Shown piece by piece: positions 2,238-29,472 of a stretch of DNA of 64,000 bases. Numbering within the stretch: the first letter of the stretch is position 1; the number at the start of each line of letters is the position of its first letter. The position numbers were made by a program, and so were the translations under genes. This DNA is from Halorubrum lacusprofundi ATCC 49239. Lineage in GTDB: Archaea > Halobacteriota > Halobacteria > Halobacteriales > Haloferacaceae. The stretch spans positions 186,001-250,000 of the forward strand of contig NC_012029.1 of NCBI RefSeq assembly GCF_000022205.1, given 5' to 3'. Under the pieces are notes generated by a model. That model ran no database searches. It was given only the letters and a program-made list of their open reading frames with translations, and was not told the DNA's origin.

Positions 2238-2238
2238 G

Positions 2239-9092: not shown

Positions 9093-9107
9093 GGAGAGAC
9101 CGCCCGC

Positions 9108-11816
9108 TCAGTCGTCGGCGAGTTCGGCGATATCGAGCTCAGCGGCGTCGAGATCGGCGGCGTCCTCCCGGCGCACCGTCGACCGATTCGTGCGCGGGTC
9201 CTTCTCCACCGTCACCAGCTCGTCGGCCGCACCTACCAACTCGTCGTCGTGGCTGACGATGAGGATCTGGCGCACGCCGAATCCGCGCATCTCCTCGACG
9301 AGCCGGACTAGCCGGGAGACGTGCCCGGAGTCGAGGAAGACGGTCGGCTCGTCGAGGATGAGCGGCGGCGTCGGCGCCGCGCCCTCGATCCCCTCCGAGA
9401 GCAGTCGGTAGATCGCACAGCGCAGCGAGAGGTTGAACAGGGCGCGCTCGCCGCCGGAGAGCTGCTCGGGATCCAGCGGCTCGCCGTCTTTCTGGTAGAC
9501 GGTAAGGACGTACTCGCCGTCGAGCTCGATATGCGAGTAGGCGTCGTTGCCGTAGACGAGTTCGAACGTCTCGTTGAGCGTGCGCTCCAACTCGGCGACG
9601 TTGCGCTGCCGAAGCTCCGCCCGGAGGTCGCCGTACATCGCCTCCAGCTCGCTCGTCTCTTCGTGGAGGTCTTCGAGCGCGTCTACCCGCTCCGCGAGCG
9701 ACTCGCGCTCCTCCCGGAGGTTCTCCAATTCCTGAATCTCACTGTTCACTCCGCCGATCGCGTTCTCCAGTTCCGTCCGTCGTTCCGCGAGGCGGTCGAG
9801 CTCGCCGTCGACCTTCTCGAGGTATTCCTCGGCCGTCTCCTTCCGCTCTCTCGCCTCGTCGACCGCTGCCTCGTCGACCGCCTCCGCGAGCTCGTCGCGG
9901 CGCTCGCGCTTGTCTGCGAGTCGGTCGCGCCGCTCGTCGTTCACCTCGTTCAGGTTCTCCCGCTTCTCGCGGCGACGCTCGATCTCGTCTTCCGCGTCCG
10001 CGATCGCCGACAGTTGCTCTTCGATCGCCGCTACCGCCTCCCGGGCGTCGTCGACCGCCGCGAGTGCGTCTTCGAGTTCCGCCACGCGTTCCGCGGCCGC
10101 CTCGGCCTCCTCGCGCTTCTCCGTGGCGACATCGTGGGTCTCCTCGGCCTCCTCGCGGAGGTCTTCGACACGCTCACGCTTTTCCGCCGCCGCCTCCCGC
10201 TTCCGGTCAGCCTCCGCGTGCTTCTCCTCGACACGGTCTTCGAGGGTCTCGACGGTCTCGTCGATCTCGTCGAGCCGGTCCGCCGCGCTTGCGAGCTCAC
10301 TCAGCTCCGCGAGCCGGTCATCAAGGTCGCTCTCGCGTTCGCGGGCCTCCTCCAGTTCCGCTTCCAGTTCGGCGACCTGCTCGCGGTCCTCGTCGATTCC
10401 GCTCGCGTGCGGCGAGTCCTCGACCGGCTGTCCGCACTCGGGACACTTCCCCGCCGCGAGCAGCTCCTCGGCCTCCTCGACGCGGTCGCGGGCGTTCTTC
10501 AGCTCCGCCGACAGCTCCGCGATCCGCTCGCGGACCTCACCGCGCCGCTCGCGCAGTGCCTCTCGCTCGTCGGCGACCCCGTCCCGGTCGATGTCGGCGT
10601 CGGCGGCTGCGAACCGCTCGCGAAGCGTCTCGGCCTCCTCGCGGAGTTCTTCGACCGAAGACTCGCGCTCGTCAGCCTCGTCCGCCGCCGCCTCGGCCTC
10701 GTCGCCGAGGTCGTCGGCCTCCGATTCGATCTCCGCCGCGCGCTCGGCGCGGTCGTCGGCCTTCCCGGTGAGGTTCGTCGCCTGATTGCGGAACGCCTCG
10801 GCGCTCACCCGCTCGTCGTCGAGCTCCTCGCGGACCGTCTCCTCGCGGCCGTCGAGCTCGGCGCGGCGCTCGGCGATGGTCTCGTCGCTTGCCGCGTCGA
10901 GTCCGGCACCGTCGAGCCGGCCGTCGATCGCGGCCTCGATCTCCTCGACCCGCTCGCGGGCCTCGCGGACCGCGTCTCGGTGCTCGTCGCGCTCGCGCTC
11001 CGCCTCGCGAATTGTCGCTTCAATCTCGTCGATCTCAGCCGCCACCGACTCCAGTGTCTCGCGTTTCTCCGCGTGGGTCGACAGCGTTTCCGCGGCGGCC
11101 TCGCGGGTCTCCTTCGCCTGCTCGCGCTGCGTCTCGTAGCGGTCGATCTCGTCGGTGACCTCGGAGAGGTCGCTTTCGAGTCCGTTGAGGCGGTCGTGGA
11201 GGTCCTTCTCCTTCTTCTCCGCGATCTGGTCGTCGAGCTGGTCGAGTCGCCCGCGGCGGTTCTCCAGCACGTCCTCGACGCCGAGCCGCGCGTCACCGGC
11301 GCGCTCGCGGTACTCCTCTAGCTTTCCGAGCTGGAGCAGGTCATCGATCGTGTCCTGTCGCTCGCGGGGCGTGGCGTTGATCAGCTTGTTGACCTCACCC
11401 TGTCGGACGTACGCGCAGTTGACGAACGCCTCGGCGTCCATCCGAAGGAGTTCCGTGACGAACTCCCGCACGGCGCGCGCGCCGTCGCGGGTCACGTCGC
11501 TCCCGTCCGTCGTTTCGAGCGTGCACTGGTGATCGATCCGACCGTCGTACTCCTTGAGCCGTCGCTCGATATGGTAGGAGGCACCGTCGTGCGTGAACCA
11601 CAAGTCCACTTCCGTCTCTTCCTCGCCGTTCGTGATCACGTCTCCGAGAGTGCCGTCGAGCGCCTTCGACCCGTAGAGCGCGAAGAAACAGGCCTCCAGA
11701 AGCGAGGACTTCCCGCTGCCGTTGAGTCCGTGGATGACCGTGACGCCCTCGGTCAGTCGGAGGTCGGCGTCGCCGTACGGCTTGAAGTTCGAGAGCCGGA
11801 CGCGGTCGAAGTTCAC
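9108..11816 (-). CDS. rad50: DNA double-strand break repair ATPase Rad50
   Basis: A 902-residue SMC-like ATPase that works with Mre11 in break sensing and end processing. The N-terminal lobe has Walker A G-L-N-G-S-G-K-S (about 30-37). Two long coiled coils flank the zinc hook C-P-E-C at about residue 457. The C-terminal lobe has the signature L-S-G-G-E-R-A-L, Walker B/D-loop L-D-E-P-T-V-F-L-D and switch V-S-H-D. The GTG start overlaps the mre11 stop by 4 nt (GTGA), so the two are translationally coupled. The length is normal for archaea. Confidence 0.97.
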   Translation of the reverse strand: MNFDRVRLSNFKPYGDADLRLTEGVTVIHGLNGSGKSSLLEACFFALYGSKALDGTLGDVITNGEEETEVDLWFTHDGASYHIERRLKEYDGRIDHQCTLETTDGSDVTRDGARAVREFVTELLRMDAEAFVNCAYVRQGEVNKLINATPRERQDTIDDLLQLGKLEEYRERAGDARLGVEDVLENRRGRLDQLDDQIAEKKEKDLHDRLNGLESDLSEVTDEIDRYETQREQAKETREAAAETLSTHAEKRETLESVAAEIDEIEATIREAERERDEHRDAVREARERVEEIEAAIDGRLDGAGLDAASDETIAERRAELDGREETVREELDDERVSAEAFRNQATNLTGKADDRAERAAEIESEADDLGDEAEAAADEADERESSVEELREEAETLRERFAAADADIDRDGVADEREALRERRGEVRERIAELSAELKNARDRVEEAEELLAAGKCPECGQPVEDSPHASGIDEDREQVAELEAELEEARERESDLDDRLAELSELASAADRLDEIDETVETLEDRVEEKHAEADRKREAAAEKRERVEDLREEAEETHDVATEKREEAEAAAERVAELEDALAAVDDAREAVAAIEEQLSAIADAEDEIERRREKRENLNEVNDERRDRLADKRERRDELAEAVDEAAVDEARERKETAEEYLEKVDGELDRLAERRTELENAIGGVNSEIQELENLREERESLAERVDALEDLHEETSELEAMYGDLRAELRQRNVAELERTLNETFELVYGNDAYSHIELDGEYVLTVYQKDGEPLDPEQLSGGERALFNLSLRCAIYRLLSEGIEGAAPTPPLILDEPTVFLDSGHVSRLVRLVEEMRGFGVRQILIVSHDDELVGAADELVTVEKDPRTNRSTVRREDAADLDAAELDIAELADD

Positions 11817-13123
11817 AGGTAGTCCTCCATGGAGACCTGCTCGTCGATGTCGGCAGCGCTGGCCGTCGCGGTATCGTCCTTGCCTCCGATCGGTTCGCCG
11901 TCAGTTTCGTCGTCTGCGAGTTCGGCTTCGTCGTCTGCGAGTTCGGCTTCGTTGTCTTCGGCTTCCGCATCTCCGTCTACGGTCTCGCCTCGATCGAACG
12001 CGTCGAGATCGTCGAGGTCGTCGATCCGCTCTTCAACCCGGCGTTTCACGGTCTCTCTGACGTTTGTGTCGGGAATCGTGTCGGCGCGGACCGCCTCCTC
12101 GACGTCGAAAGCGGCCTCTGACAGTCCCATCTCCTCGACCCGCTCTCGGACGGCGTCTTCGGGGTCAGCGAAACTCACATCGATCTCGGCATCCGTCTCC
12201 ACCTCGCGGCGGTCGGTCACGCGAGCGATCAGCGCTCCCTCGTCGGTCGCGAACTCCTCGATCGCGGCCGGCGTGACCGGGTCTCCCTCGCCGGTCACGT
12301 CGACGAGGACGACGGCGTCGCCGAGGTCGTGTTGGCGGACCTTCTCGCGCACCCGCGCCGCGCCCTCGCCCTCGCGAAGGTCGACTTCCACGAAGACGAA
12401 CGGGCGGGTGTCGAGCGCGCGCCGCCGGATCTCCACGCGGTCGTCGCCCCCGGCGGCGTCGGCGTCGAAGGTGACGAGGTTGTAGCCGCGCCCCTCGCGC
12501 TCGCTCGCGCTGGCGCGCTCGGTCGACCCCGGATACGTGACCCACGTGCCGTCGACCTTGGCGACATCGGGTGTGTGGTTGTCGCCGAGAAGCATCGCGT
12601 CGAAGTCCACGTCGCTCTCCGTGAGCACCGTTTCCGTGTCCCAGTCCGCGTAACCGAACGGCTCGAAGAGGCCGTGCGCGACGAGGGCGGCGTAGTCCGC
12701 GTCGTGATCGTCGAACGCGTAGTCGAGGTCGTCGCGGCGGGAGACGGGGACGTGATCGAGCCCGTAGAAGGAGGTGTCGCCGACGACGGTCGGATCGTCG
12801 CCGAGCCGGGTCGCGAGCCCCAGCCGTTCGAACAGGTCGAGCCACTGGCCGCCCCGCGTCGACTCGTGGTTTCCGACCACGGCGAGGAAGGGTACCCCCG
12901 CGTCGTCGAGCCGGCGGAGGATCGAGATTGTTCCCATCAGATCGGTGAGCTCCGGCCGGCGGTCGTGAAAGAGGTCGCCGGCGTGGACCACTGCGTCGAC
13001 TTCTCCTTCGATCGCGTCGTCGATCACGGCCGCGAAGGCGTCGAGGAAGTCTTGTCGTCGGACCGGCGAGTGGTACTGCGTGTACCCCATGTGGGTGTCG
13101 CCGGTGTGAATCACCCGTGTCAT
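11813..13123 (-). CDS. mre11: DNA double-strand break repair nuclease Mre11
   Basis: A 436-residue Mre11 nuclease. The metallophosphoesterase core shows H-T-G-D-T-H-M-G at the N-terminus, then H-A-G-D-L-F-H, V-V-G-N-H-E and A-H-G. I chose the ATG at 13123 over a GTG two codons earlier because a TATA-like element is centred about 29 nt upstream and T-R-V-I-H-T-G-D-T-H is the usual family start. The C-terminal tail, about 60 residues, is very acidic and contains an internally repeated E-L-A-D-D-E-A unit. It is the first gene of mre11-rad50. Confidence 0.96.
   Translation of the reverse strand: MTRVIHTGDTHMGYTQYHSPVRRQDFLDAFAAVIDDAIEGEVDAVVHAGDLFHDRRPELTDLMGTISILRRLDDAGVPFLAVVGNHESTRGGQWLDLFERLGLATRLGDDPTVVGDTSFYGLDHVPVSRRDDLDYAFDDHDADYAALVAHGLFEPFGYADWDTETVLTESDVDFDAMLLGDNHTPDVAKVDGTWVTYPGSTERASASEREGRGYNLVTFDADAAGGDDRVEIRRRALDTRPFVFVEVDLREGEGAARVREKVRQHDLGDAVVLVDVTGEGDPVTPAAIEEFATDEGALIARVTDRREVETDAEIDVSFADPEDAVRERVEEMGLSEAAFDVEEAVRADTIPDTNVRETVKRRVEERIDDLDDLDAFDRGETVDGDAEAEDNEAELADDEAELADDETDGEPIGGKDDTATASAADIDEQVSMEDYL
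11908..11949 (-). repeat. 21-bp tandem repeat in the mre11 tail
   Basis: Two exact 21-bp copies (11908-11928 and 11929-11949) encode the repeated E-L-A-D-D-E-A heptad in the acidic Mre11 tail, and a degenerate partial third copy follows. The length is a multiple of three, so expansion would keep the frame. Confidence 0.85.
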
Positions 13124-16815: not shown

Positions 16816-17745
16816 TCACTCGCTCGCCGCTCTGAACGTCCGCACCGCGTCGCGGTACCCCTCGCGAAAGGTCGGATAGGTGAACTCGTAGCCGAGCGCC
16901 CGCAGGCGGTCGTTCGAGCAGCGCTTGCTGGTCCGGATCCGCCGTTCGGCCGCGGCGGAGAGATCACCGTTCGCGATCTGATCCGCTTTCGACCGCTTCG
17001 CCGGCCGCGGCACGCCGCACGCGTCGGCCAGCCAGTCCGCGAACGCGTGCTTGTCGATCGGCTCGTCGTCGACGACGAGGACGGCGTCGCCGCGAGCACA
17101 GTCCGCTTCGAGGAGGTACCGGACCGCCCCGGCGGCGTCGTCGCGGTGGACCATGTTGAGGTATCCGGCTGTGACCGGTCCATCGAGGTAGCGCTCAAGC
17201 CGGTAGCGGTTCGGGCCGTACAGCCCCGCAAACCGTGCAACCGTCCCGTCGATCCCGAACTCGGCCGCCGTCTCTAGCGCGATCCGTTCCGCCGCTGCGA
17301 GGACGCGGGTCTTGTCGGTCGTGGGCTCTATCGGCGTCTCCTCGTCGACCCACGCGCCGTCGTGGTCGCCGTACACGCCCGTCGACGAGGTGTAGATGAG
17401 CCTGTCTGGCGTCTCCACCCGCGATCCGTACGCCTCGATCACGTTCCGGAGGCCGTCGACGTACACCTCGCGGGCGGCCGCGGCGCCGCGACCGCCGGAG
17501 CTGGCCGCGAACACGACCGTGTCCGCCTCGGGGAGCGCGTCGAGCGACGCCGGATCGGTCGCGTCCGCGCGGACGGCGTCCACTTCGCCCAGATCTCTGC
17601 CGCCGTCTACCGCCTCTCCGACCGACTCGATCGCGTCCAGCCCGGCGTCCGATCGCCGGACGCCCGTCACGGCGTGGCCGCGCTCGGCGAGTTGTCGGGC
17701 GAGTTCGAGGCCGACGTAGCCGCAGCCGACGACGACGACCCTCAT
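16816..17745 (-). CDS. NAD(P)-dependent epimerase/dehydratase family protein
   Basis: A 309-residue extended SDR-fold protein. The Rossmann motif G-C-G-Y-V-G-L is at residues 7-13. A T-S-S-T-G-V-Y-G segment near 120 provides the usual active-site serine/threonine region. The classical Y-x-x-x-K pair is not clean here, as in the YeeZ-like subgroup. It probably acts on a nucleotide sugar or related substrate, but none can be named. Its ATG overlaps the stop of the upstream gene by 4 nt, so the two are coupled. Confidence 0.85.
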   Translation of the reverse strand: MRVVVVGCGYVGLELARQLAERGHAVTGVRRSDAGLDAIESVGEAVDGGRDLGEVDAVRADATDPASLDALPEADTVVFAASSGGRGAAAAREVYVDGLRNVIEAYGSRVETPDRLIYTSSTGVYGDHDGAWVDEETPIEPTTDKTRVLAAAERIALETAAEFGIDGTVARFAGLYGPNRYRLERYLDGPVTAGYLNMVHRDDAAGAVRYLLEADCARGDAVLVVDDEPIDKHAFADWLADACGVPRPAKRSKADQIANGDLSAAAERRIRTSKRCSNDRLRALGYEFTYPTFREGYRDAVRTFRAASE

Positions 17746-18239
17746 GACTTCCGTCGCTCGATGACCGCCATGATCTCCGCCAGCTGCCCGAGCGTCATCG
17801 GAGCGCGCCCCTCAAGCGCCTGCTGGACCTCCTGTCCGGTGAGATCCGCGTCGATCGCGGCGGCAATCGTGTCCACGTCGAGCACCGCCGTCGCCATCCC
17901 CATCAGTAGGTGGTCGCGGACCTCGGCGACGACTGCGTCGCCGTCGCGGTCGGTCGATACGGCGACGATTGCGGCTCCGTCTTCGAGCCGAATCTCCGTG
18001 GCGTCGCCGTCAACGGCAGCGTCGATGACACCTCCATCGAGCCCCGTCTCATCGACGAGTCGGTCGCGGCCGACCTCCGCGGCCGCCTCGCTCAGCAGCG
18101 TCTCAAACGACGCCAACAGCGCCGCAGCGGTCACTTCGTCCGTGTCGGTCGACTCGCCGTCCTCAGTCTCTCCGCTCTGCGTCTCTCCCGCGCCGCTCTC
18201 GACTCCCGTCGCGCCGTCGGCGACGACCTCGTGAAACAT
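17742..18239 (-). CDS. Conserved haloarchaeal protein (DUF5791-like)
   Basis: A 165-residue acidic protein. A Ser/Thr/Glu-rich linker separates M-F-H-E-V-V from a C-terminal domain. That domain has A-L-L-A-S-F-E-T-L-L-S-E-A-A, a beta-rich middle, and helices ending L-G-Q-L-A-E-I-M-A-V-I-E-R-R. I recall this as DUF5791, a haloarchaeal family without known function; that name is from memory. It overlaps the epimerase gene by 4 nt and lies 42 bp past the end of the secretion operon. Confidence 0.65.
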   Translation of the reverse strand: MFHEVVADGATGVESGAGETQSGETEDGESTDTDEVTAAALLASFETLLSEAAAEVGRDRLVDETGLDGGVIDAAVDGDATEIRLEDGAAIVAVSTDRDGDAVVAEVRDHLLMGMATAVLDVDTIAAAIDADLTGQEVQQALEGRAPMTLGQLAEIMAVIERRKS

Positions 18240-18281: not shown

Positions 18282-21200
18282 TCACGGCTTCGAACACTTC
18301 CCCTCGCCGCCCGACGGCGATTCCCCCATCGCGCCGGGGCATGGCCATCCCCCTGACCGCTCATCGCGAGTTCCGTCGACATCGCCGACACCGGGCGGGC
18401 CGGCTGGGACCGCGACGGCGACTACCGTCTCGGCCTCGAACGCGATCGGTTCCGTCTTGCCCAGTTGCACCGTCTCTCCGCCCACGTCGACGGTCACATC
18501 GCCCTCGCTCCGGACGTACGTAAAGCGTTTATCGGGTGTTCCCACATTGGCGCGCAGCGCGAATCGCGGGTACTCCCCGCGGATCTGCACGCGCCAGGCG
18601 TTCACCGTCGTCACCCAGTACCCCGGAACGGGCGCGACTGGGAGCCCTGCGCCGACGGTTCGAGCGGGCTTCATCGACCACTTTTCGCCCAGTTCTTTTA
18701 CAGCCTTCTCGCTCACCTTTCCGGTAGCTGCTTTGCCCGCGCGCGCCGCTTGGTTCTCAACCGCCTTTTCCATCCGGTCTCTGAGCAACACCCGCGCTCC
18801 GCTCGTCGTCTCGTCGACGAACCGGGTCGGGACCCGAACCGCGTCCCTCCCGGCCGCGGTCCGCGTCGCGACGCGTAAGTTCGCGGCGAGCGCCTCTTCG
18901 GCCGCCCGCGACAGCGACCCGACGCTTGCGGCCTCGGCGGCGACGCGATCCGGATAGGATCCGTCTCCGACGGCAACCGCACGCTCGCCGGGGGAACCGT
19001 AGCTCGCGGCGGCCTCGTCGAGCGCTCTGCGTCGCTCGTCTCGCGACAGCGAGGTCCGGACGCGGAGTGTCGATCCGAGCGCCCCGTCAACCTCGTCCAG
19101 CGACCCGTCTATCTGCCGGGCAAGTGCATCCCGATCTGCTCGCAGGTCGGGATCGTCGTCCGCTGCCAGCGCATCGTTCGCTAGGAGGAGCGACCGGCCC
19201 GCAGTTCCGACCCGTACCGTGTCCTCGGTACCGAGGATCCGATCGACGACGCCGCTCGACACCTCCCCGTACGGCACGGTGACGTAGTTCACGTTGCGGA
19301 CCGCGAGCGGTCGCGTCGTCGTCCCATCCACGCCGTCGACGGCTTCCCCGTCGACGGTCGTCCGCGGGAGGTATCCCGGAGAGCCGTTCGGTTCGAACGT
19401 CACCGCTCCGCCGGGGCCGTCCTCGCCGATCGCGTACGTCCCGGAATCGCGGGCGGCCTCTCGGCTGGCGAGAGCGTCGCCAACGTCAGGGCCGTCGAAG
19501 GCGCTGTTCACGCGGTCGAGGAACCCGTCAGTCGCGCGCTCGCGGTCGCTTGCGGCGGACTCGAGCTCGTCGATTACGGCGTCGAGATACGCGGTGCGGG
19601 CAGCGGTTCCGGCCCGATCAGCGGCTCCGTCGTACGTCACCGGCGCGTCGACAAGTTCCGCGCGTCGGTCGCGGATTGCGTCGGCGAGATCGGCGTACGG
19701 TTCCGCCTCGCCGACCGCTGCATCCTCCATCGACGCCTCGGTCTCGATGTCGCGCACGTCGCTCGCGAGTGCGGCCACGTCGGCCGCAACGGCGTTCCGA
19801 TCGGCCTCCGATCGGGAGCCGACAACGGTCGTTGATCGCGTCACCTCCCCACCGCTGATCGCGTCTTCGGTGATCCGATCGACGCCGTTCTCGGTGTCGA
19901 CATCGAGGTCGACCCGTGCGATCGGGGGCGTGTCGCGCAGGTCCGGACCGTCGCTCGCGTCGCCCGCGCCGAACGTCGCGGTGGCCCGGTCGGGCGCTCC
20001 GTCGGTCGGGGCGTGTTCCCCCGATACCGACACCCTTACCCGATAGTGGTCGGTCACCGCGTCGCGTGTGGTCGCCCGATGGACCCGCTCGTCGACGACG
20101 CTCCCGTTCGGGCCGCGCTCGACCGTCACTCGCTCCCACTCCGCGACCGCAACGCGCTTGACGGTCGCCTCGCGGGTTTCGAGGCCGAACGAGACACGCT
20201 CGCCGGGGTCGACGATTCCCGACGGGACACCCTCCGGTACGCCGGATCCGGAGATGATCGGCGACCGTTCTGTCCGTGTCAGGTCGACGCGCTCCCAGTC
20301 GCCGGTCGTCGTGAATTCCGAGGGAGAGGGTGTCGGCGGCGTCGGACGCCCGCCGTCGACAACCTGCGTCGTCGACGTCTCGACGCGTGCTTCGACCCGA
20401 TACGCGCTCTCGATGATCGCGTCAAGATCGTCGTAGACGCGCGTCGCCCCCTCGTCGGCTGCACGGCCGACCGGAACCGAAGTCCGTTCGTCCGTCCGCT
20501 CTTCTCCGAACTCGAACGCAGCGTCCTCGCTCGGCTGATCGCCCGGGGTGTCGTTCTCGCCCGAACCGTCTCTCTCGCCCGGACCATCGCGTACCCCCGG
20601 TGTCGGCGCGCTGAGCACGGCCTCGGTCCACGACCCCTCGTCGACGCCGGTCGGCTTGAGCAGGTCGGTGACTCCGGTCCGCGCCGTCGCGCGCGCCACT
20701 CCCCCGCGTGCGTTCGGGTCGCTCGTGCCGAACACGTCACGCTGCGTCCGGACGATCCCCGCGTTCGTCGACAGCTCCACGTGGCGGTTCGCGAGCACGT
20801 TCTCGACCGGCGCGCCCGCGTACTGCCCGTACCCGCGCGCCCATGTCATCGCGTAGAGACTTGCGGTGATCTGGCGCCCCAACCCCGGCCCCTCGACCGG
20901 ACCCCGGTTAAGCCGCTCCTCGAACCGCTCCGTCCGCTCATGTGCCGCGAGCGTCGGCACGGCCACCACGACTGTCCGGTCTTCCGTTCGCTCCACGACG
21001 GTGCGTCCGCTCCGCGTCGCGGTTGTTTCTACCCCTTCGAACGTCACCCGTGTCGCTGTTCCGTTCGCGGCGGGTTCGACGCGGATTCGATCGCGCGCCG
21101 CCGCCAGCTCACTCGGACCGTCTACCGCCGGTAGCGACGCCGTCGCCGTCACGTCACCGACTTCGGCGTCCACGGCTGCCAGCGCCTCGGAACCGGCGAT

Positions 21201-21584
21201 CGCGAGCCGGATCCGGAACGCGTCTTCGAAGGCCGATCCGTTCCTGACTGCGGTTGATCCGTGTCCGTCTTCCGAGCCGGCGGCTGATCCGTCCGGCGCT
21301 CGCGTCACCGGCTCTGCGGCCGCGTCGTGCGCGGCCTGACGCGCTGCGGCCCTGAGCGCGGCGGTAGAATCGGCGTCGACGCGCTCGACGGCGCGCTCCA
21401 CACTCCGGTCCTCGCCGATGAGTCCCTGATCTGCGATCCCTGCGGCGTACGTCGAACTCGTCACGAGGAGGAGAACACCGATCAGCGCGAACGGGACTCG
21501 TGCACGCTCGTCGACGGTGAAGGACCGACACCGCGTTCCGGAACACGACGCGTTCGTTCCCGGCGATAGCTTTCCCACGCTCAC
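18282..21584 (-). CDS. Giant membrane-anchored exported protein of the Tad-like operon (DUF7286-like)
   Basis: About 1,100 residues. One hydrophobic helix near the N-terminus (about 30-50) follows a short charged segment, giving a pilin/TadG-like topology with nearly the whole chain outside the cell. The exterior is acidic, mixed beta and coil, with Ser/Thr-rich stretches. A C-terminal domain contains P-G-Y-W-V-T-T-V-N-A-W, followed by a tail with two Cys. I chose the GTG at 21584 because it gives a 4-nt GTGA overlap with the preceding gene; another GTG is one codon upstream. It is the last gene of the operon and by far the largest product. I recall a haloarchaeal DUF7286 family of this size and context. 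Confidence 0.8.
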   Translation of the reverse strand: MSVGKLSPGTNASCSGTRCRSFTVDERARVPFALIGVLLLVTSSTYAAGIADQGLIGEDRSVERAVERVDADSTAALRAAARQAAHDAAAEPVTRAPDGSAAGSEDGHGSTAVRNGSAFEDAFRIRLAIAGSEALAAVDAEVGDVTATASLPAVDGPSELAAARDRIRVEPAANGTATRVTFEGVETTATRSGRTVVERTEDRTVVVAVPTLAAHERTERFEERLNRGPVEGPGLGRQITASLYAMTWARGYGQYAGAPVENVLANRHVELSTNAGIVRTQRDVFGTSDPNARGGVARATARTGVTDLLKPTGVDEGSWTEAVLSAPTPGVRDGPGERDGSGENDTPGDQPSEDAAFEFGEERTDERTSVPVGRAADEGATRVYDDLDAIIESAYRVEARVETSTTQVVDGGRPTPPTPSPSEFTTTGDWERVDLTRTERSPIISGSGVPEGVPSGIVDPGERVSFGLETREATVKRVAVAEWERVTVERGPNGSVVDERVHRATTRDAVTDHYRVRVSVSGEHAPTDGAPDRATATFGAGDASDGPDLRDTPPIARVDLDVDTENGVDRITEDAISGGEVTRSTTVVGSRSEADRNAVAADVAALASDVRDIETEASMEDAAVGEAEPYADLADAIRDRRAELVDAPVTYDGAADRAGTAARTAYLDAVIDELESAASDRERATDGFLDRVNSAFDGPDVGDALASREAARDSGTYAIGEDGPGGAVTFEPNGSPGYLPRTTVDGEAVDGVDGTTTRPLAVRNVNYVTVPYGEVSSGVVDRILGTEDTVRVGTAGRSLLLANDALAADDDPDLRADRDALARQIDGSLDEVDGALGSTLRVRTSLSRDERRRALDEAAASYGSPGERAVAVGDGSYPDRVAAEAASVGSLSRAAEEALAANLRVATRTAAGRDAVRVPTRFVDETTSGARVLLRDRMEKAVENQAARAGKAATGKVSEKAVKELGEKWSMKPARTVGAGLPVAPVPGYWVTTVNAWRVQIRGEYPRFALRANVGTPDKRFTYVRSEGDVTVDVGGETVQLGKTEPIAFEAETVVAVAVPAGPPGVGDVDGTRDERSGGWPCPGAMGESPSGGEGKCSKP

Positions 21585-22255
21585 CACCTCCTAATCACGA
21601 TTCTGACCGATTTGGCGGCGTCCGCGGCGTTCGGTGCCGGGTGCGTGATCACCGCGACTGTGACATCGGCGCCCCGCGGCGGCTCGCTCCCGACGGTGAC
21701 TGGGTCCGGCGACTCGGACCCGGCAGTCGGGTCTTCCGTTTCGGGGCTACCGGCCTCTCCGTGTCTCCGATCGATACGCCACGGGATTCCTGTTCCGCCC
21801 GTCGTCGGCGCCACAGACCCGTTCGACGCCCAGCGCGGTGTTCTGACCACGATGCCGGGCGAAGGAGCCCCCGTTTCGCCCTCGGCTTCGTCTTCAGTCT
21901 CGTCCAACGTTCTCACTTCCGCGTCGACCCGCGTCCGCGGTCCGATCCCCCGATCGATAGCGGCCAGCGCTTCGGACTCGAACGCCTCCCTCGCCGCACG
22001 TTTCCCGCCGCCTCCTTCGTTTTCGGCCGCCACCAGCGCCAGCAGCTCGGCGCGCGTCGCGTGGACCGTCCGGGTTCCGTTCGGCGCCTCTGCTGACGCG
22101 TACGTCACCGTTACTGTTTCCGTCACTATCAGATCGGCGACCTCGGCGACTTCGGGTCCCGCCGCCCTGCGGTCGCTATCAGCCGCACCGAGCGCGACGA
22201 CGCTCGCGGAGACACAAAGGAGAAGCACCGTCACGTCGAGTACAGTGCTGGTCAC
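21581..22255 (-). CDS. Exported membrane-anchored protein of the Tad-like operon (DUF7284-like)
   Basis: A 224-residue protein starting at GTG. The first 25 residues form a hydrophobic helix (S-T-V-L-D-V-T-V-L-L-L-C-V-S-A-S). An acidic, Thr/Glu-rich exterior domain follows, with a long low-complexity linker around 125-185. It overlaps both neighbours by 4 nt, so it is tightly coupled in the operon. It has the shape of a minor pilin or pseudopilin, but without a canonical archaeal prepilin cleavage site. Function unknown. Confidence 0.75.
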   Translation of the reverse strand: MTSTVLDVTVLLLCVSASVVALGAADSDRRAAGPEVAEVADLIVTETVTVTYASAEAPNGTRTVHATRAELLALVAAENEGGGGKRAAREAFESEALAAIDRGIGPRTRVDAEVRTLDETEDEAEGETGAPSPGIVVRTPRWASNGSVAPTTGGTGIPWRIDRRHGEAGSPETEDPTAGSESPDPVTVGSEPPRGADVTVAVITHPAPNAADAAKSVRIVIRRW

Positions 22256-22692
22256 CGGTACACCACCGCCCGAAGCGTTCCGCGGATGTTCCGTCCCGGC
22301 TCGACGCTAACCGTTACCGGCCGCTCGGCGACCGCGACTGCGTCTGTGCCCCGAGCGGCCTCTGCTACCGGCGCCTCGTCGCCGGACCGGACCGTCCACG
22401 TCTCGCCGTCGGCCTGGATCTCGACGGTTGCGCCGAACCGGAACTCGCCGACACCGCGCAACCGTTCCGGATCGACGACGCCGCCCGTCGTCACCGCCGG
22501 CTCGACCCGATCGAGCGTCGCTTCGGCGGTCGGACGCTCTCGATCTGGCGCCGCGTCGTCGAGCGCGCCGACGTACAACCCGAGCGCCGCTCCGACGGCG
22601 AGCACGGCAACCAGGGCGGCGATCGGCTCGACCGCGGCGCGGCTCTCGGTCCCCTCCCCGCGGAGGAACCGCTCATCCGACGAGCGTGACAT
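22252..22692 (-). CDS. Pilin-like exported protein of the Tad-like operon (DUF7285-like)
   Basis: A 146-residue protein. A short charged leader runs into R-A-A-V-E-P-I-A-A-L-V-A-V-L-A-V, a hydrophobic helix at about 20-42 with Glu four residues after Arg. This recalls TadE/pilin N-terminal helices. The exterior domain is mostly beta. It overlaps the previous gene by 20 nt and the next by 4 nt. It is the best pseudopilin candidate in the operon, but cleavage by the prepilin peptidase is inferred only. Confidence 0.75.
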   Translation of the reverse strand: MSRSSDERFLRGEGTESRAAVEPIAALVAVLAVGAALGLYVGALDDAAPDRERPTAEATLDRVEPAVTTGGVVDPERLRGVGEFRFGATVEIQADGETWTVRSGDEAPVAEAARGTDAVAVAERPVTVSVEPGRNIRGTLRAVVYR

Positions 22693-23161
22693 GGACCTCC
22701 CCGTAATGAACTCGTCTCACTGTCAGCCGATCCGGCGCCGGACGCCACTCGTGATCGCCTCTCCGGGCGCGCTCGGCGGCGGCTGCGAACTCCTCCGGAT
22801 CGTCGAACGCCGCGTCCGGCGGAACGCCGCTGAGCACTCGACGGAGACCGTCGCCCTCGGTAGTCTCTCGTCGCTCCGTCGGGACCGGCGTTATCCGCGG
22901 CGCACGTAAGGACGCTCGCGCGGTCCCGCCTCCACCATCGAGTGCGACGGACCCGGTGGTGAGTCGAATACGGTTTGCGGCGAGTCCGTGTTCCGCCCTC
23001 GCTGGATACTCGTCGTCCGCGATCGAGTCGATCGTGTGTGCGACGCCGCTCGCGTCCGGCGGCGGCGAGGCCGGGAACGCGCCGACGACGCCGGCGGTTG
23101 CGACGCTCACCATCGCCAAGCCGATCCACGCGTAGGTGGCGTCGAGGTTGGTCTCGAACAC
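22673..23161 (-). CDS. Exported membrane-anchored protein of the Tad-like operon (DUF7283-like)
   Basis: A 162-residue protein starting at GTG. One hydrophobic helix lies at about 9-30 (A-W-I-G-L-A-M-V-S-V-A-T-A-G-V-V). The exterior part is an acidic domain ending in V-H-Y-G-E-V-H-V-T-L. A TATA element 27 nt upstream suggests that an internal leaderless promoter starts the block of four exported-protein genes. No enzymatic motif is seen. Confidence 0.75.
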   Translation of the reverse strand: MFETNLDATYAWIGLAMVSVATAGVVGAFPASPPPDASGVAHTIDSIADDEYPARAEHGLAANRIRLTTGSVALDGGGGTARASLRAPRITPVPTERRETTEGDGLRRVLSGVPPDAAFDDPEEFAAAAERARRGDHEWRPAPDRLTVRRVHYGEVHVTLVG

Positions 23162-23184
23162 GGGGCGGCTGGCCGCGGCTTTGT

Positions 23185-23192
23185 ACTTAAAC
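23185..23192 (-). promoter_or_regulatory. Internal TATA element before the four exported-protein genes
   Basis: Minus-strand GTTTAAGT, centred 27 nt before the GTG at 23161, in the only sizeable gap (57 bp) of the ATPase-to-exported-protein part of the operon. It could allow extra expression of the exported components relative to the machine. Confidence 0.55.
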
Positions 23193-23218
23193 GATCGCTC
23201 CGACGCTTCTTCGTCTGG

Positions 23219-25045
23219 CTACAGCAGCAGTCCGGCACCGAGGAAAGCGACGAGGTACGTCGCGGCCGCGGTCGGGAGCGCGATTCCAACCCGATAGGCG
23301 ACGAGGGTCCGGTCGAACCCGCGTTCGAGTCCTGTCGCTAACGCAGTGAGCAGCGCCGCGAGGATCAACACGTACGCGCCGACGATCTGTCCGAGCACGG
23401 GCACCGAGAGTGCGCTGGCGCTGTCCGATTTTGCACCCGCCCCGCTCGTCGTTCCGCTCGCTTCGGCACCGACTGTGCCCGGGTCACCGACACCACCGGC
23501 ACCGCCGAGCGCGTCTGCGCCGGCCGTCGCTCCGGCGCCGAGTCCCCCAGCGTCGACCGCGTCGATTCCGGTGGCCAACGCGACTGTCGCCCCGCCGACG
23601 AGCGGCGCGAACACCGCCGCGGTGTTCGTCAGCGTTCCCGTCACGGTCGCGAGCTGTCGTCGCGCATCGTTTTCGAGCTCGCGCAGCTCCTCCAACTGGT
23701 CGGCGAGTTCGAGCAGCACGTCGCCCGCGGGACGCCCCTCACGCCCGGCGACGGCGAGCAGCGCGACCGCGCCTTGCACCCGCGGCGACGGAACCGGAAC
23801 CGCCGGACCGCCCCGGCCGAGGAACGCCTCCCGAACGTCGACGCGGAGCGTGTCGCTCCGCCGTCCAGCGCGCTCGAACAGCTCCCCAGTGGCGCCGTCG
23901 AGTCGTTCGCCGGCGTTCGCAATTGCGGTCTCGACGGCGACGCCCTCGGCCACGTCGCCGCCGATCACCGTCATCGCGTCTGGGAGGGAGCGCTCGACGG
24001 CACGGACGTTCGACAGCACCGCTCTGCGGCGGTGAACGGCAACGAACAGCGCGACGCCGGCTCCGACGCCGACCCCTGCGACCGGAGCGGCCCATCCGGA
24101 GACGAACCGCGCTGTAACGACGGCGGCGATGGCTCCGGTTCCCAATCCGGCGACCGCGGCGTGAGTTCCTCTCTCCGGGACATCCGGGTGGTCTTCGTCG
24201 ATACTCGGGGGCGCGAACGCGACCGGGCGACGGGAGAGCAGCCATGCCGACGCCGCGAGCAGTCCCGCCGGCAGCACGCCGAGGTACAGCGCCGCGACGA
24301 CGCCGGGACCGATTGGGACGCCCGTCGCGGCAGCCGCCGGAAGGAGAGCAATGAGCGCAAGGGGAAGCAACACCCCGAACGCGTACAGCGCCGAGACGGG
24401 GCTGCGGACTTCCCCGACGAAGGCGGCAAGTCGGTCCGTCGTTCCGGAAATTGTTGCATCGAGCGCGCGGTCCAGACACCGCCCTCGACGCTCGGGCGGC
24501 GCTGATGCCGCCGTTCGGACGAGCGCCGCTGCCCGATCGATGGCCGGAAACCACGGCTGCCACTCGCGGGCGAACGCCCGGAGCCCGCTGGTCGGTCCAT
24601 CGGTGTTCGCTCGCTCGTGGCGCGCGAGGCCGTCGGCCAGCGGTCCGTCGCCAGTCCGTGCGGCGAATCGAACGGCACGCTCCGTCGACGGGTCCAACCG
24701 CATTCGCAACACGAGCCGTCCGACGAGTCCGGGCGCGGCCCCGAGCGCTCTGGTCCGCCGGAGCGAGGCAAGCCACACTGGGCCCCGATGGGCGATGTGC
24801 GTGGCTCCGAGACCGCCCGCCAGTCCGGACAACAAGCCGGGAACGGGTCCAGAGACGAACGCGACGACGACGGCGCAGGTGAGACCGACTCCCACGCCGG
24901 CCCAATATCCCGTTTCGATCACACGCGCGCTCGTCGCCTCCCATCCGAGGAACGCGATCGCTCGACGGAGCTCGGCCGACCCCTCACCGTCGTCCGTCGC
25001 ACTGCGTCGCGCAGCGCCGTCGAGATCGCTATCCGGACCAGTCAT
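23219..25045 (-). CDS. TadC/GspF-family inner-membrane platform protein
   Basis: A 608-residue multi-spanning membrane protein, the platform partner of the adjacent ATPase. Two T2SSF-type cytoplasmic domains are visible, one about 75-190 and the other about 335-450 with helices such as E-L-A-D-Q-L-E-E-L-R-E-L-E. They are separated and followed by hydrophobic segments. A Gly/Ala-rich low-complexity linker of about 50 residues lies near 500-550. Its ATG overlaps the ATPase stop by 4 nt. It would sit in the cytoplasmic membrane and transmit ATPase motion to pilin-like subunits. Confidence 0.88.
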   Translation of the reverse strand: MTGPDSDLDGAARRSATDDGEGSAELRRAIAFLGWEATSARVIETGYWAGVGVGLTCAVVVAFVSGPVPGLLSGLAGGLGATHIAHRGPVWLASLRRTRALGAAPGLVGRLVLRMRLDPSTERAVRFAARTGDGPLADGLARHERANTDGPTSGLRAFAREWQPWFPAIDRAAALVRTAASAPPERRGRCLDRALDATISGTTDRLAAFVGEVRSPVSALYAFGVLLPLALIALLPAAAATGVPIGPGVVAALYLGVLPAGLLAASAWLLSRRPVAFAPPSIDEDHPDVPERGTHAAVAGLGTGAIAAVVTARFVSGWAAPVAGVGVGAGVALFVAVHRRRAVLSNVRAVERSLPDAMTVIGGDVAEGVAVETAIANAGERLDGATGELFERAGRRSDTLRVDVREAFLGRGGPAVPVPSPRVQGAVALLAVAGREGRPAGDVLLELADQLEELRELENDARRQLATVTGTLTNTAAVFAPLVGGATVALATGIDAVDAGGLGAGATAGADALGGAGGVGDPGTVGAEASGTTSGAGAKSDSASALSVPVLGQIVGAYVLILAALLTALATGLERGFDRTLVAYRVGIALPTAAATYLVAFLGAGLLL

Positions 25046-26994
25046 TGGTTGCCACCGCCGAGGCTGTCCGTCCTCTGCCAGCCGTCGCCGTCGCGGCCGA
25101 CGTAGCGCTCCGGCGTGATCCGGCCGGTTCTCGCTGCCTCACCGATTCTCTCTCCCCGCCGATCGACGGCGTCGCGGACGGATGCGTACGATTCGTCGGT
25201 CTCTGCGAGCGACTCGACGAGCCGGCTCTCCCCGCGATCGATCCGGCCGGTAGAGACCAACCCTGATCCGGTTCGCTCGAACAGCGGCTCGAACGAGGCC
25301 TCGCCGTCGTGACCGACGACCTCGGCGATCGTCTCGACGCGATGATCGTCGAGCACAACGATCAGATCGGTCGCAGCGAACGAGGATGGGGAGACGCCGA
25401 GATCGGTAACGACCCGCTCTCGGACCGCGGCGGGGTCCTCGCCGTGGATCGTCCCGAGGACCGCCTCGCCGGCCGCGCCGACGCGCATCGCCTCGTACAA
25501 CGCCGCTGCCTCCTCGCCGCGGACCTCGCCGACGACGATCGCACCACCGCCGAGCCGGAGGGCAGTTCGCACCGCCTCGCTCGGTGACGGCTCTGCGCCG
25601 TCACCCACTCGGAGCCGCTGGGTGTCGCGCCCGGCCGCAGTCACCGCGGCGGCCGGCAGCTCCGGCGTATCCTCGATCAATATCGATCGCGTCTCGGCTG
25701 GCAGCTCCCAGAGGAGGGACCCAAGCGCGGTCGTCTTCCCCGCGCCGCGGCCGCCGGCCACGAGTCCAGTCACGCCTCGCTTGACGGCCACGGAAAGGAG
25801 CCCAGCGGCCGCGGGCGTGATCGTCCCTCCATCCACGAGCCGCGCGAGGGTCCACGCGTCCGGGTCACCGCGGCGGAACGTAAACGAGAGGCCGTCGCTG
25901 GCGGGGGCCGTCGTCGCTGCGACCCGAACTCGACCGGCTTCGGCCTCGATCGTCGCGTCGAGCGTGGGACTTGCTCGGGAGAACCCTCGCCCGCTCGTCC
26001 GCCGAAGGCGGGACGCCAACGTCGCCGCCCCCTCCGGCGGCAGCCTGACGTTGGTGCGACACCGCTCCCCGTCGACGACCACCCGAAGCGGATTCTCGGC
26101 GACGGGCGCCGACAGCGTCGCGTCGCTCACGCGGTCGTCAGCGAACACGTGCTCGAACGCGCCGTATCCGCGCGTGTGTCGTCGAAGCACGTCGACCAGT
26201 GTCGAGACGGGGTCACCGGCCGACGCGATCGACCGCACCGCTCGCCCTGGTGCCCTGTCGCCGCCGGTTGGGTCATCGAGCAGTCGGTCTTTGGCGTCGG
26301 CGAGCCGCTCGACGGCCTCGTCGTCGAGCCGGGCCGAGGGGGGCGTGAGGTGGTACGTCCGAAGCGGTCCCGCTCCCTCGTACAGTCGCACGGTCGCGCC
26401 GGTATCGATCTCCCATCGGTCGACGAGCGCCGCATCCGGCGGCGGCGCCGACGCGATGCGCGTGGCCGCGATCGTCGGACCGGCGTGCGCTCGCAACACG
26501 TCGCCGGTCTCCTCAGCGCTAGCGACGGTCTCGGCCAGTCCGGTCTCCGCGGCGATCCGCTTCGGTGGTCCCTCGCGGCCGCTCGCCTCCCGCGCTGCCT
26601 CGATAGGCTCTCGGGTCACGCGCTCCGCGAGCCGCGTCTCGTGGAACTCGATCTGCTCTCGGAACCGCCCGGCGGCGATCAGGCACGCCGCGGCCCGCCC
26701 GGCATAGGTTCGCTCTCGGCCCGCGTGGTGCGTCCGGATCACGTCGGCGTCGCGCTCCGTCAGCGTCTCCACGACCGTCGCGAGGCAGGCGGGGCTCGCC
26801 GCGAGGTCGCCGCGCCCGGGGCAGTCGTCGGCGTCCACTGAAAGGACCACTCGGTCGTCAACACCGGTCCCGACTGGCTCTCTGAACGATGGATCGCACT
26901 GACAGCTATCTGTGTCGCCGTCGAGCCACGGGAGCGAGCGCAGCGACGTGTCGTCGCCACCGAGCCGCGACAGCGAAGGGAGATCGAAGCTCAT
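25042..26994 (-). CDS. TadA-type secretion ATPase (type II/IV secretion, archaeal pilus family)
   Basis: A 650-residue motor ATPase. The core has Walker A G-R-G-A-G-K-T-T near residue 411, Walker B I-V-V-G-E-V-R-G-E-E and His box G-T-I-H-G-E-D. A Cys cluster near the N-terminus (C-Q-C at about 33-35, then Cys near 58 and 69) could bind a metal. It should power assembly of the pilin-like proteins encoded downstream. It overlaps the TadC-like gene by 4 nt. Substitutions compared with PilB3 or ArlI cannot be judged by eye. Confidence 0.9.
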   Translation of the reverse strand: MSFDLPSLSRLGGDDTSLRSLPWLDGDTDSCQCDPSFREPVGTGVDDRVVLSVDADDCPGRGDLAASPACLATVVETLTERDADVIRTHHAGRERTYAGRAAACLIAAGRFREQIEFHETRLAERVTREPIEAAREASGREGPPKRIAAETGLAETVASAEETGDVLRAHAGPTIAATRIASAPPPDAALVDRWEIDTGATVRLYEGAGPLRTYHLTPPSARLDDEAVERLADAKDRLLDDPTGGDRAPGRAVRSIASAGDPVSTLVDVLRRHTRGYGAFEHVFADDRVSDATLSAPVAENPLRVVVDGERCRTNVRLPPEGAATLASRLRRTSGRGFSRASPTLDATIEAEAGRVRVAATTAPASDGLSFTFRRGDPDAWTLARLVDGGTITPAAAGLLSVAVKRGVTGLVAGGRGAGKTTALGSLLWELPAETRSILIEDTPELPAAAVTAAGRDTQRLRVGDGAEPSPSEAVRTALRLGGGAIVVGEVRGEEAAALYEAMRVGAAGEAVLGTIHGEDPAAVRERVVTDLGVSPSSFAATDLIVVLDDHRVETIAEVVGHDGEASFEPLFERTGSGLVSTGRIDRGESRLVESLAETDESYASVRDAVDRRGERIGEAARTGRITPERYVGRDGDGWQRTDSLGGGNQ

Positions 26995-27027
26995 GGCGGG
27001 CGTGCCCGCCGTATCGTATATAAATCC

Positions 27028-27498
27028 TCACTCGATCCGCGTGATCCGGACGATCGGGCCGCCGTCGTCGACGAGGCGGAGGTCCAGACGACTCTCGCCG
27101 CGCGTTCGGAGCGCAATCGGCCCGTCGACGACCTCGACGGTCGCGGTCACTGCGTCGGAGACGATCGGGACAGTCCGGTCGCGGCCCCCGTCGATCCGAT
27201 ACCGGAGCGCGGCGCCGGACTCGTTTCCAGACTGTTCCGTCTCGACGAGCGCGAGGCGGCCGATCCGCGCCGCGGTGACGCCGGCCGGCGCTCGGATGGT
27301 CACCGTCGTCCGGGCTGCGAGCGACGGATCTGAGACGCTCATCGACCCGGAGACGAGCCCGCCGATCGCTCGCTCGACGCGGTCCGATTCGGTTCCGAGC
27401 CGATCGTCGGTCGTGCTGACGCGGGCGTCCTCCAGCGCCGGCATCGAGGCCGCGAGGAGCGCAACCGCGACGAGGACCGTGAGGACGACGCGGATCAC
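27028..27498 (-). CDS. Exported single-helix protein of the Tad-like operon (DUF7311-like)
   Basis: A 156-residue protein. The N-terminal hydrophobic helix (2-20, I-R-V-V-L-T-V-L-V-A-V-A-L-L-A) is followed by an exterior domain of mainly beta strands ending I-V-R-I-T-R-I-E. It lies between the coiled-coil gene (27 bp away) and the ATPase gene (33 bp). The topology again resembles a minor pilin or TadE-like subunit. I recall a DUF7311 family in this position from memory only. Confidence 0.75.
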   Translation of the reverse strand: MIRVVLTVLVAVALLAASMPALEDARVSTTDDRLGTESDRVERAIGGLVSGSMSVSDPSLAARTTVTIRAPAGVTAARIGRLALVETEQSGNESGAALRYRIDGGRDRTVPIVSDAVTATVEVVDGPIALRTRGESRLDLRLVDDGGPIVRITRIE

Positions 27499-27525
27499 TG
27501 GCTCGTCCTCACGGTACGAAGGCGT

Positions 27526-28317
27526 TTACAGTGAGTCACGGAGCCGATCCAGCGCGCCGGCGCGCCACGAGTCGTCCGCTCGATCGCCGTCCGCTTCGCC
27601 GGGGTCGACTGCCGACGTGGACGCCGCTCCCGTCCCGTTCTCTCGCTGTCGCTCTGACGGAACGGCGGCGTCGAGGGCGGTCTCACTCGGCACGACGCCG
27701 TCGAGTGTATCGTCGTTCGCGCCCGTGTTGTCGTCCGCAGTCGTTCCACTACCGGCGATCGAGTCATCGCCCGCGGTCGTGTCATCGTCAGTGAGCGTGC
27801 CCTCGTTTTCGACTGCCTTCTCGCCCGCACCGTGGTTCTCGCTCGCTCTGGCGAGCGCGAGGTCGGCGCGGCGCTCGACCGCTTGGTTCACCGCCCGGAT
27901 CGATCCGACGTACCCCCTGATCGCCTGCGTCGCCGCCTCCAGCTCCTCGACGCGCGCTTCGAGGTCGTCGAGCCGTGTCGACAGCTCCTCACGCTCCGCG
28001 GTCGCGGCCGCTCCGTCGCCGATGTCTGCGACGGCGTCGTCGGTCCCGGTAAGCGCCCGCTCGACTGCGCGAAGCCGTTCTTCGACCCGGTCGTCGCTCG
28101 ACTCGGTGTTCGGATCGACGCTCGGCTCAGCGCTCGGCTCGGTATCTGAACCGGCGACTGTGCTCCGATTTTTGCCGGCGAGCGAGGTCTGATCGGGCCC
28201 GGAACGCTCCGTGCCCCCTCTCGCTGCTGATACGCCTCGACGACCATCGCCCGTCGTCTCCGGTGGCTCCCCGGCGTCGGCGAACGCCCGGTCGCGATCG
28301 TGAGTGTCGTCGGTCAC
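27526..28317 (-). CDS. Coiled-coil protein, first gene of the Tad-like operon (DUF7310-like)
   Basis: A 263-residue acidic, soluble protein starting at GTG. Disordered Asp/Ser/Thr-rich ends flank a coiled coil at about 75-150, visible as heptads in L-R-A-V-E-R-A-L and R-L-D-D-L-E-A-R-V-E-E-L-E. There is no signal peptide or membrane helix, so it is probably cytoplasmic. As the first gene of the secretion operon it may organise the ATPase or act as an adaptor. Its promoter is back-to-back with that of the CetZ gene. Confidence 0.75.
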   Translation of the reverse strand: MTDDTHDRDRAFADAGEPPETTGDGRRGVSAARGGTERSGPDQTSLAGKNRSTVAGSDTEPSAEPSVDPNTESSDDRVEERLRAVERALTGTDDAVADIGDGAAATAEREELSTRLDDLEARVEELEAATQAIRGYVGSIRAVNQAVERRADLALARASENHGAGEKAVENEGTLTDDDTTAGDDSIAGSGTTADDNTGANDDTLDGVVPSETALDAAVPSERQRENGTGAASTSAVDPGEADGDRADDSWRAGALDRLRDSL

Positions 28318-28342
28318 GCGGCCGACTGGCCGCGGTTCCCTA

Positions 28343-28349
28343 CTTAAAA
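28343..28349 (-). promoter_or_regulatory. TATA element of the Tad-like operon
   Basis: Minus-strand TTTTAAG, centred about 29 nt before the GTG at 28317. It would drive the roughly 10-kb operon as a leaderless or nearly leaderless mRNA. Confidence 0.6.
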
Positions 28350-28362
28350 CTCGGGGGAAAAG

Positions 28363-28370
28363 GTATTACG
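28363..28370 (+). promoter_or_regulatory. TATA-like element of the cetZ gene
   Basis: GTATTACG, centred about 27 nt before the ATG at 28393. It lies about 20 bp from the divergent TATA of the secretion operon. Confidence 0.45.
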
Positions 28371-28392
28371 ACCGGTCGGTGAGCATACGATC

Positions 28393-29472
28393 ATGAAAGC
28401 GGTCCTCCTCGGCGTCGGACAGGCGGGTGGGAAGCTCACGACAGCACTCGCTGAGTTCGACGCCGACGCCGGCTACGGCGCGGTGCTCGACGCGCTCGCG
28501 GTGAACACGGCATCGGCGGATCTGGAGCCGCTCCCGCTCGACACGGTCCTCGTCGGCCAGTCGCGGGTGAACGGTCACGGCGTCGGCGGCGACAACGAAC
28601 TCGGTGCCGAGGTGATGGAGGAGGACTCCGTCGAGGTGCTGGACGCGCTCGCATCGAAGGTGAACGCCGACGCGGAGGCGCTGTTCGTGGTCGCGGGGCT
28701 CGGCGGCGGCACCGGCTCCGGCGGCGCGCCGGTGCTCGTCCGTGAACTGAGCCGCGTGTACGACGTCCCGGTGTATGCGCTCGGCGTCCTCCCCGGCCGC
28801 GACGAGGGGGAGATGTATCAGGTGAACGCCGGCCGGTCGCTGAAGACGCTCGTCCGTGAGGCCGACGCGACGATCCTGCTCGACAACGACGCGTGGCGCT
28901 CCTCGGGTGAGTCGGTCGAGGGCGGCTACGCGGCGATCAACGCCTCAATGGCGAAGCGAGTCGGACTCCTGCTCGCGGCCGGTGAGTCGGTCGATGGGGT
29001 CGCCGAGTCGGTCATCGACACCAGCGAGGTGATAAACACGCTGCGCGCCGGCGGTATGGCCGCGGTCGGTTTCTCGTCCGCGCCCGCCGCCGAAGACGCC
29101 GAAGAGAACGTTACGACCGTGATGAGCGCGGTTCGGAGCGCGGTGATGACCGGAATGTCGCTTCCGAACGCGACTGACGCGGACGCCGCCTTAGTCGCTA
29201 TCGCGGGTGATCCCGACCGAATCTCTCGGAAGGGAGCCGAAAAGGCGCGCAAGTGGTTACAGGAGGAGACCGGGTCGATGCAGGTGCGCGGCGGCGACTT
29301 CCCGCTCGACTCCGACCGGGTGGCCGCCTTGGTTCTCCTCGGAGGCGTCGAGCGCTCGCGCCGCGTCGAGAAATTCCTCGAACGCGCGCGACAGGCGGTG
29401 AGAGACGAGCCGGAGGAACAGCCCGATCCCGCCGAGGCGTTCCAGAACGACGAGCTTGACGACTTGCTGTAG
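28393..29472 (+). CDS. cetZ: CetZ/FtsZ-family tubulin-like GTPase
   Basis: A 359-residue cytoskeletal GTPase. The N-terminal G-V-G-Q-A-G-G-K is the CetZ-type nucleotide-binding loop, and the tubulin signature G-G-G-T-G-S-G-G lies at 104-111. In the T7-loop region the chain reads [13 protein letters not shown], so the acidic catalytic residue of canonical FtsZ is not obvious. The C-terminus (N-D-E-L-D-D-L-L) resembles a short partner-binding tail. CetZ proteins control cell shape and motility in haloarchaea. This could be one of the less-studied paralogues. It is divergent from the secretion operon. Confidence 0.85.

Follow-up and report, generated by a model that had tools for sequence, protein, structure and literature searches.

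What machine is built by an operon that joins the motor of a type IV filament to five exported proteins, and has such a system been described before? We addressed this question for eight co-directional minus-strand genes (18282-28317) of the haloarchaeon Halorubrum lacusprofundi ATCC 49239, in a window of 64,000 nucleotides (contig NC_012029.1, positions 186,001 to 250,000); coordinates are window positions except where a locus in another genome is named. We find it likely that the operon encodes an archaeal type IV pilus or pseudopilus machine of subclade 4F, corresponding to the cetZ2-linked pilB2/C2 regulon, in which the exported protein DUF7286 would be a giant minor pilin. This reading is supported by the ATPase family, the marks of subclade 4F, the gene order, the co-occurrence of motor and exported proteins, prepilin-type motifs enriched in three exported families and a PibD-type peptidase in the genome.

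A compact operon with a TadA/PilB-type motor

The original prediction, made from the DNA letters alone, described eight minus-strand reading frames separated by at most 57 bp with several 4-nt overlaps, among them five exported proteins with a single N-terminal hydrophobic helix, one of about 1,100 residues. All eight frames are present, and their spacings in transcription order (27, 33, -4, 57, -20, -4 and -7 bp) agree with that description, the overlap being exactly 4 nt in two cases. A hydropathy scan likewise bore out, at the threshold used, one hydrophobic segment near the N-terminus of each of the five exported proteins and none further, and the giant one has 1,101 residues.

The operon begins with DUF7310, a coiled-coil cytoplasmic protein of 263 residues with no hydrophobic segment (27526-28317; PF23991, E=7.1e-28), followed by DUF7311, whose hydrophobic helix starts at residue 1 (27028-27498; PF23993, E=1.3e-39). 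Next come an assembly ATPase of the T2SSE/TadA/PilB type, known as PilB2 in the literature (25042-26994; PF00437, E=1.8e-18), and a probable membrane platform of the TadC/PilC type, a single protein of 608 residues (23219-25045; PF00482, E=3.2e-4). The other exported proteins are DUF7283 (22673-23161; PF23954, E=2.6e-52), DUF7285, with a pilin-like N-terminus and a prepilin-type motif (22252-22692; PF23956, E=8.4e-27), DUF7284 (21581-22255; PF23955, E=8.2e-13) and the pilin-like giant DUF7286 (18282-21587; PF23957, 1090.5 bits), whose closest named relatives are from Halorubrum species at 84-87% identity. Every gene except the platform has a Pfam match above the cut-off, and none of the five exported proteins matches a phage family. 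Given these curated family matches and an order conserved across the class, the eight-gene arrangement is not due to chance.

The ATPase scores 66.8 bits against PF00437 (cut-off 24.9). Its best curated model is the TadA-family TIGR03819 (E=2e-32, yet far below the cut-off of that model), and the closest solved structures are 2oap and CpaF, with FlaI also among the solved relatives. The N-terminus carries a four-cysteine pattern, CxC..CPGxG..C, of which two cysteines are invariant and two reach at least 90% in a 28-sequence alignment; methanogen orthologues have a similar cysteine-rich N-terminus. In a quick tree of 44 ATPases, which has very long branches in two outside rows and holds no references of named clades, the ATPase of the operon falls among the halobacterial operon ATPases, and the halobacterial and methanogen cysteine-rich ATPases group together (99), separate from five further T2SSE ATPases encoded in the genome. 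The platform, with several transmembrane-like peaks and weak similarity between its N- and C-terminal halves, adjoins the ATPase in 73 of 81 loci (80 from a named-genome search, plus the window).

Conservation across Halobacteria

Next we examined how widely motor and exported proteins are kept together. Among 242 Halobacteria genomes, DUF7286 was found in 187, DUF7283 in 182 and the N-terminal part of the window-type ATPase in 185. Tallied by hand from the genome lists, 180 genomes held both the ATPase and DUF7286, 7 held DUF7286 only (several of these being partial matches), 5 held the ATPase only (weak matches) and 50 held neither (Fisher p=3.5e-38, which overstates independence because the genomes are related). 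The exported proteins are thus conserved with the ATPase, present in 180 of the 187 DUF7286-positive genomes, a point on which the prediction had been staked beforehand. With the operon kept in about three quarters of the sampled genomes, it is probably doing something important.

The predicted common order of these DUF families across haloarchaea was also recovered. About nine in ten of 40 loci chosen for spread have all eight genes, in the same order in nearly all, and the full order is found in 73 of the 81 loci, several of the exceptions lying on short or truncated ones. In one genome (G046) the operon is split between two distant loci, a motor half with DUF7310, DUF7311, ATPase, platform and DUF7283 (L202) and an exported half with DUF7285, DUF7284 and DUF7286 beside cetZ (L203). 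Both halves have been retained, which we count in favour of a type IV pilus.

Two further genomes show reduced forms. G045, a sister of G046, keeps DUF7285, DUF7284 and DUF7286 and has no match to the ATPase or DUF7283. A scar of operon loss is seen in G012 (L200, about 8889-12182), where cetZ and the DUF5791 gene flank a reading frame of 313 residues that covers no more of DUF7286 than its C-terminal quarter.

Relation to described archaeal pilus loci

Makarova et al. 2016 (PMC4858521) listed a locus type of archaeal type IV pili as subclade 4F, marked by a cysteine-rich ATPase N-terminus, TadC, predicted pilins, the coiled-coil protein arCOG07564 and a nearby gene of the FtsZ family, and placed it in Halobacteria and methanogens. 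Brown and Duggin 2023 (PMC9856176) reported a type IV pilus regulon, pilB2/C2, next to cetZ2 in most members of the Haloferacales and Halobacteriales, in a region that also holds a sugar epimerase and arCOG04674, and gave the role of the regulon as unknown.

The window carries the marks named in these papers: the four-cysteine ATPase N-terminus, the coiled-coil gene, a cetZ2 gene 75 bp away, an epimerase and a DUF5791 gene. The divergent neighbour (28393-29472, plus strand) is a tubulin-superfamily cytoskeletal GTPase that scores 504.7 bits against the Haloferax volcanii structure 4b45 and 315.2 bits against 4b46, which are CetZ2 and CetZ1, respectively (PMC9856176). Downstream of the operon, on the minus strand, lie the DUF5791 gene (17742-18239; PF19104, E=1.9e-43) and an NAD-dependent epimerase/dehydratase gene (16816-17745; PF01370, E=2.4e-17), which are probably arCOG04674 and arCOG03095 of the cetZ2 region. 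We also infer that DUF7310 is the counterpart of arCOG07564, the coiled-coil component named in PMC4858521. Across the 81 loci, cetZ is present in 61 and divergent in 60 of these; the other 20 lack it in the stretch covered, partly owing to contig ends. The DUF5791 gene lies downstream in 35 of the 40 survey loci.

As the window shares the marks of the loci in both papers, we consider the system known, and experimentally untested in the literature that we reached. The window does not differ from the subclade 4F loci as the main text of PMC4858521 presents them, gene-by-gene identity being our own assignment, and it has the same cetZ2, epimerase and probable arCOG04674 setting and gene organisation as the pilB2/C2 regulon, with no difference found. 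The claim of an undescribed system is therefore not upheld. What stands of the original prediction is a machine that is conserved and uncharacterised, without the novelty, and its "no recognisable function" applies at the experimental level only. No paper was found under the six DUF family numbers; the earlier descriptions were reached through the gene architecture and cetZ.

Sources disagree on the clade: H. volcanii PilB2 is assigned to clade 4C in PMC6491452, in conflict with PMC4858521, which ties the FtsZ-like neighbour and the coiled coil to 4F and which we followed. The PilB3-C3/PilA adhesion pili and the PilB1-C1 pili of H. volcanii have an ATPase and platform of the same superfamily as those of the operon. 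These pili, unlike the operon, have been studied experimentally, and PilB3-C3 has no pilin genes at its locus, PilA1-6 being supplied in trans.

Two candidate links were set aside. Halobacterium salinarum pilB2 (OE1347R, PMC4292770) was treated as a different locus, without sequence comparison, because Makarova et al. place the adhesion loci of H. salinarum in clades 2 and 4C. The CdrS regulon member HVO_0739, considered as a connection to H. volcanii, was dropped, being monocistronic and having no established position relative to the operon.

Pilin character of the exported proteins

We then examined whether the exported proteins resemble pilins, scoring in all five families a prepilin-type [KR][GA] directly before the hydrophobic helix, with shuffled sequences as the control; because a script picked the start codons of the orthologues, individual calls may be in error. 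The motif was present in 93 of 121 DUF7285 proteins (shuffled mean 25), in 102 of 121 DUF7286 proteins (shuffled mean 29) and in part of the DUF7284 family (36 of 121; shuffled mean 6). DUF7286 combines an N-terminal R-[GA]-R-V-P-F-A helix with an ectodomain of about 1,000 residues. The genome encodes a prepilin peptidase (Peptidase_A24, G000:C2:2127980-2128360, E=2.5e-10), near which an open frame of the same length holds a weak Arc_PepC_II piece.

The AlphaFold2 model of DUF7285 (predicted local distance difference test, pLDDT, 83.5) has a predicted transmembrane helix followed by a small alpha/beta domain. That of DUF7286 (pLDDT 75.6) opens with a helix at the N-terminus, continues through long mixed stretches and ends in a beta domain. 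As predicted, the exported proteins are unlike textbook pilins.

Several results weigh against a type IV pilus. The prepilin-type motif occurs in 1 of 113 DUF7311 orthologues, which is the chance level, and in 0 of 120 DUF7283 orthologues. With Foldseek and VIA-align, the DUF7285 model retrieved only ribosomal uS3-like alpha/beta arrangements (Z below 7) and no known pilin, Foldseek returned nothing significant for DUF7286, and a profile search of solved structures was likewise without significant matches. As neither model has a convincing structural match, the fold comparison argues neither for nor against pilins. No PilA-type major pilin is among the Pfam matches of the operon, although no genome-wide pilin search was made. 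Furthermore, the platform match to PF00482 (T2SSF) falls below the Pfam cut-off (21.1 against 25.2 bits), its TadC-type identity being probable from sequence features. The literature that we searched held no paper testing the function of the locus, no filament and no mutant.

Counterparts in methanogens

DUF7286 also has relatives in further families of the archaeal phylum to which the Halobacteria belong. Methanosarcina acetivorans served as the positive control in this search; we take the other genomes to be methanogens as well. In several of them, the DUF7286 relative belongs to a row of genes for pilin-like proteins or lies near such a row on the other strand, with no ATPase adjoining the exported row in the stretch examined. 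By hhalign profile comparison, with methanogen alignments built from three to five sequences, these rows pair with the halobacterial set in order, at 95% for DUF7311, 97% for DUF7285 and 98% for DUF7284, and more weakly for DUF7283 (E=0.014) and the coiled coil (E=2.6e-4); each of these weaker pairs is the best of its row, and off-diagonal pairs are negligible. The orthologous cysteine-rich ATPase lies elsewhere in the methanogen genomes; of six loci examined, five have a TadC-type gene next to it.

The methanogen counterparts of DUF7311 start with a leader and a GAD-type start that are absent from the halobacterial proteins, and in the profile alignment halobacterial residue 3 stands opposite residue 14 of the methanogen relative. 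This suggests, without proving, that the leader was lost in Halobacteria. In one methanogen genome, a DUF7311-like gene (E=1.6e-5, slightly short of the Pfam cut-off) is overlapped by a Peptidase_A24 gene a few kb from the orthologous ATPase/platform pair, which we count for the type IV pilus.

We found no published account of a methanogen exported set with the same order and no adjacent ATPase, its ATPase/TadC pair lying elsewhere. The same holds for a motif kept in DUF7285, DUF7286 and partly DUF7284, and for its absence from halobacterial DUF7311 and DUF7283 when the methanogen counterparts appear to have one.

Other genes accompany these rows. At L229 (11950-14094), a HerA/DUF87-like ATPase (classified by way of its relative at L225, 10071-11183), a prepilin peptidase and a DUF7311-like gene form a row near the ATPase/platform pair. 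Non-halobacterial loci such as L184 (11370-11984) and L190 (10758-11357) encode, after DUF7286, an exported protein of about 200 residues with no Pfam match. Beside the exported set of L184, four more pilin-like genes (665-3549, minus strand) include one of DUF7288 (E=5.4e-40), a neighbouring number in the Pfam DUF series.

Proposed mechanism and alternative explanations

Under the type IV pilus hypothesis, PibD would trim DUF7285, DUF7286 and DUF7284, and the hexameric ATPase, hydrolysing ATP and acting via the platform, would raise pilin-like subunits out of the membrane to build a filament or a short pseudopilus. DUF7286, as the giant minor pilin, would most likely sit at the tip and serve as an adhesin or priming subunit, as the analogy with GspK, PilY1 or TadG suggests. 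DUF7283 and DUF7311 may act as leaderless pilin-like partners, and the role of major pilin could fall to one of the small proteins or, in trans, to a PilA-type pilin. From the cytoplasm, DUF7310 and CetZ2 may position or regulate the machine, which would probably serve in adhesion to surfaces or in contact between cells. Concrete predictions of which parts form the filament follow from the division of the subunits into leadered and leaderless ones and from the methanogen rows without an adjoining motor. With the motor of a type IV filament next to a gene of the tubulin family, the operon also makes it tractable to test whether surface machines are organised by archaeal CetZ proteins.

The same parts might instead form a secretion pseudopilus, in which a small pilin-like piston secretes or displays DUF7286 or another cargo, much like type II secretion without an outer membrane. 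A single giant exported protein beside a number of small pilin-like proteins, the lack of a recognised major pilin in the operon, and the additional exported protein next to DUF7286 in methanogens would all fit; however, no conserved cargo gene was found in the halobacterial operon among the families tracked, and DUF7286 itself has a pilin-like N-terminus and therefore looks like a subunit rather than cargo, which leaves this explanation unlikely. Quite unlikely, in our judgement, is a CetZ2-linked complex of envelope or cell shape, with the five proteins anchored at the surface, DUF7310 bridging to CetZ2 and the ATPase acting as a cell-shape motor. The divergent cetZ2 in 60 of the 61 loci with both, and the two exported families lacking the prepilin motif, speak for such a complex, but cetZ2 is found without the operon and the operon without cetZ2 (PMC9856176), G012 keeps cetZ beside a mere C-terminal scrap of DUF7286, and in the 20 loci noted above no cetZ was seen. 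We regard as similarly doubtful a reading of the exported set as an ancient surface complex of euryarchaea, distinct from a classical pilus, in which two pilin-derived members that lost their cleavable leaders in Halobacteria would be permanent membrane anchors and which DUF7310 would couple to the CetZ2 cytoskeleton; if true, this would be a machine joining archaeal tubulin to the cell surface.

A machine for DNA uptake or intercellular DNA transfer derived from type IV pilus parts would accord with the DNA exchange served by some archaeal type IV pili (PMC6668835) and with haloarchaeal exchange by mating (PMC7749143), yet Pfam matches revealed nothing of the competence type among the operon genes or those immediately downstream, and we hold it very unlikely. 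Least credible, to the point of being hardly tenable, is a bacterial-type Tad pilus acquired by transfer, even though the best curated ATPase model is of the TadA family and CpaF is among the closest solved structures. Bacterial Tad systems have small pilin-like proteins plus one large, and TadG would be the analogue of DUF7286. Bacterial Tad (type IVc) pili and the operon share the ATPase family and have no exported family in common; none of the eight proteins has a Pfam match to TadE, TadF, TadG, Flp, TadZ, a secretin or a pilotin at E up to 0.01, and relatives are found in Halobacteria and in other members of the same archaeal phylum. One long platform protein of 608 residues stands in place of TadB plus TadC, which argues for an archaeal type IV pilus, so that the label "Tad-like" given by the original prediction is loose, although its motor of the TadA/TadC type stands.

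Other features of the window

The 75-bp divergent spacer between the operon and cetZ2 (28318-28392) contains TTAAAA. Elsewhere in the window, a second T2SSE ATPase (767 residues) and T2SSF platform (664 residues) form a pair overlapping by 4 nt (47676-51970, plus strand), possibly of the PilB4-like halobacterial type with extra terminal domains.

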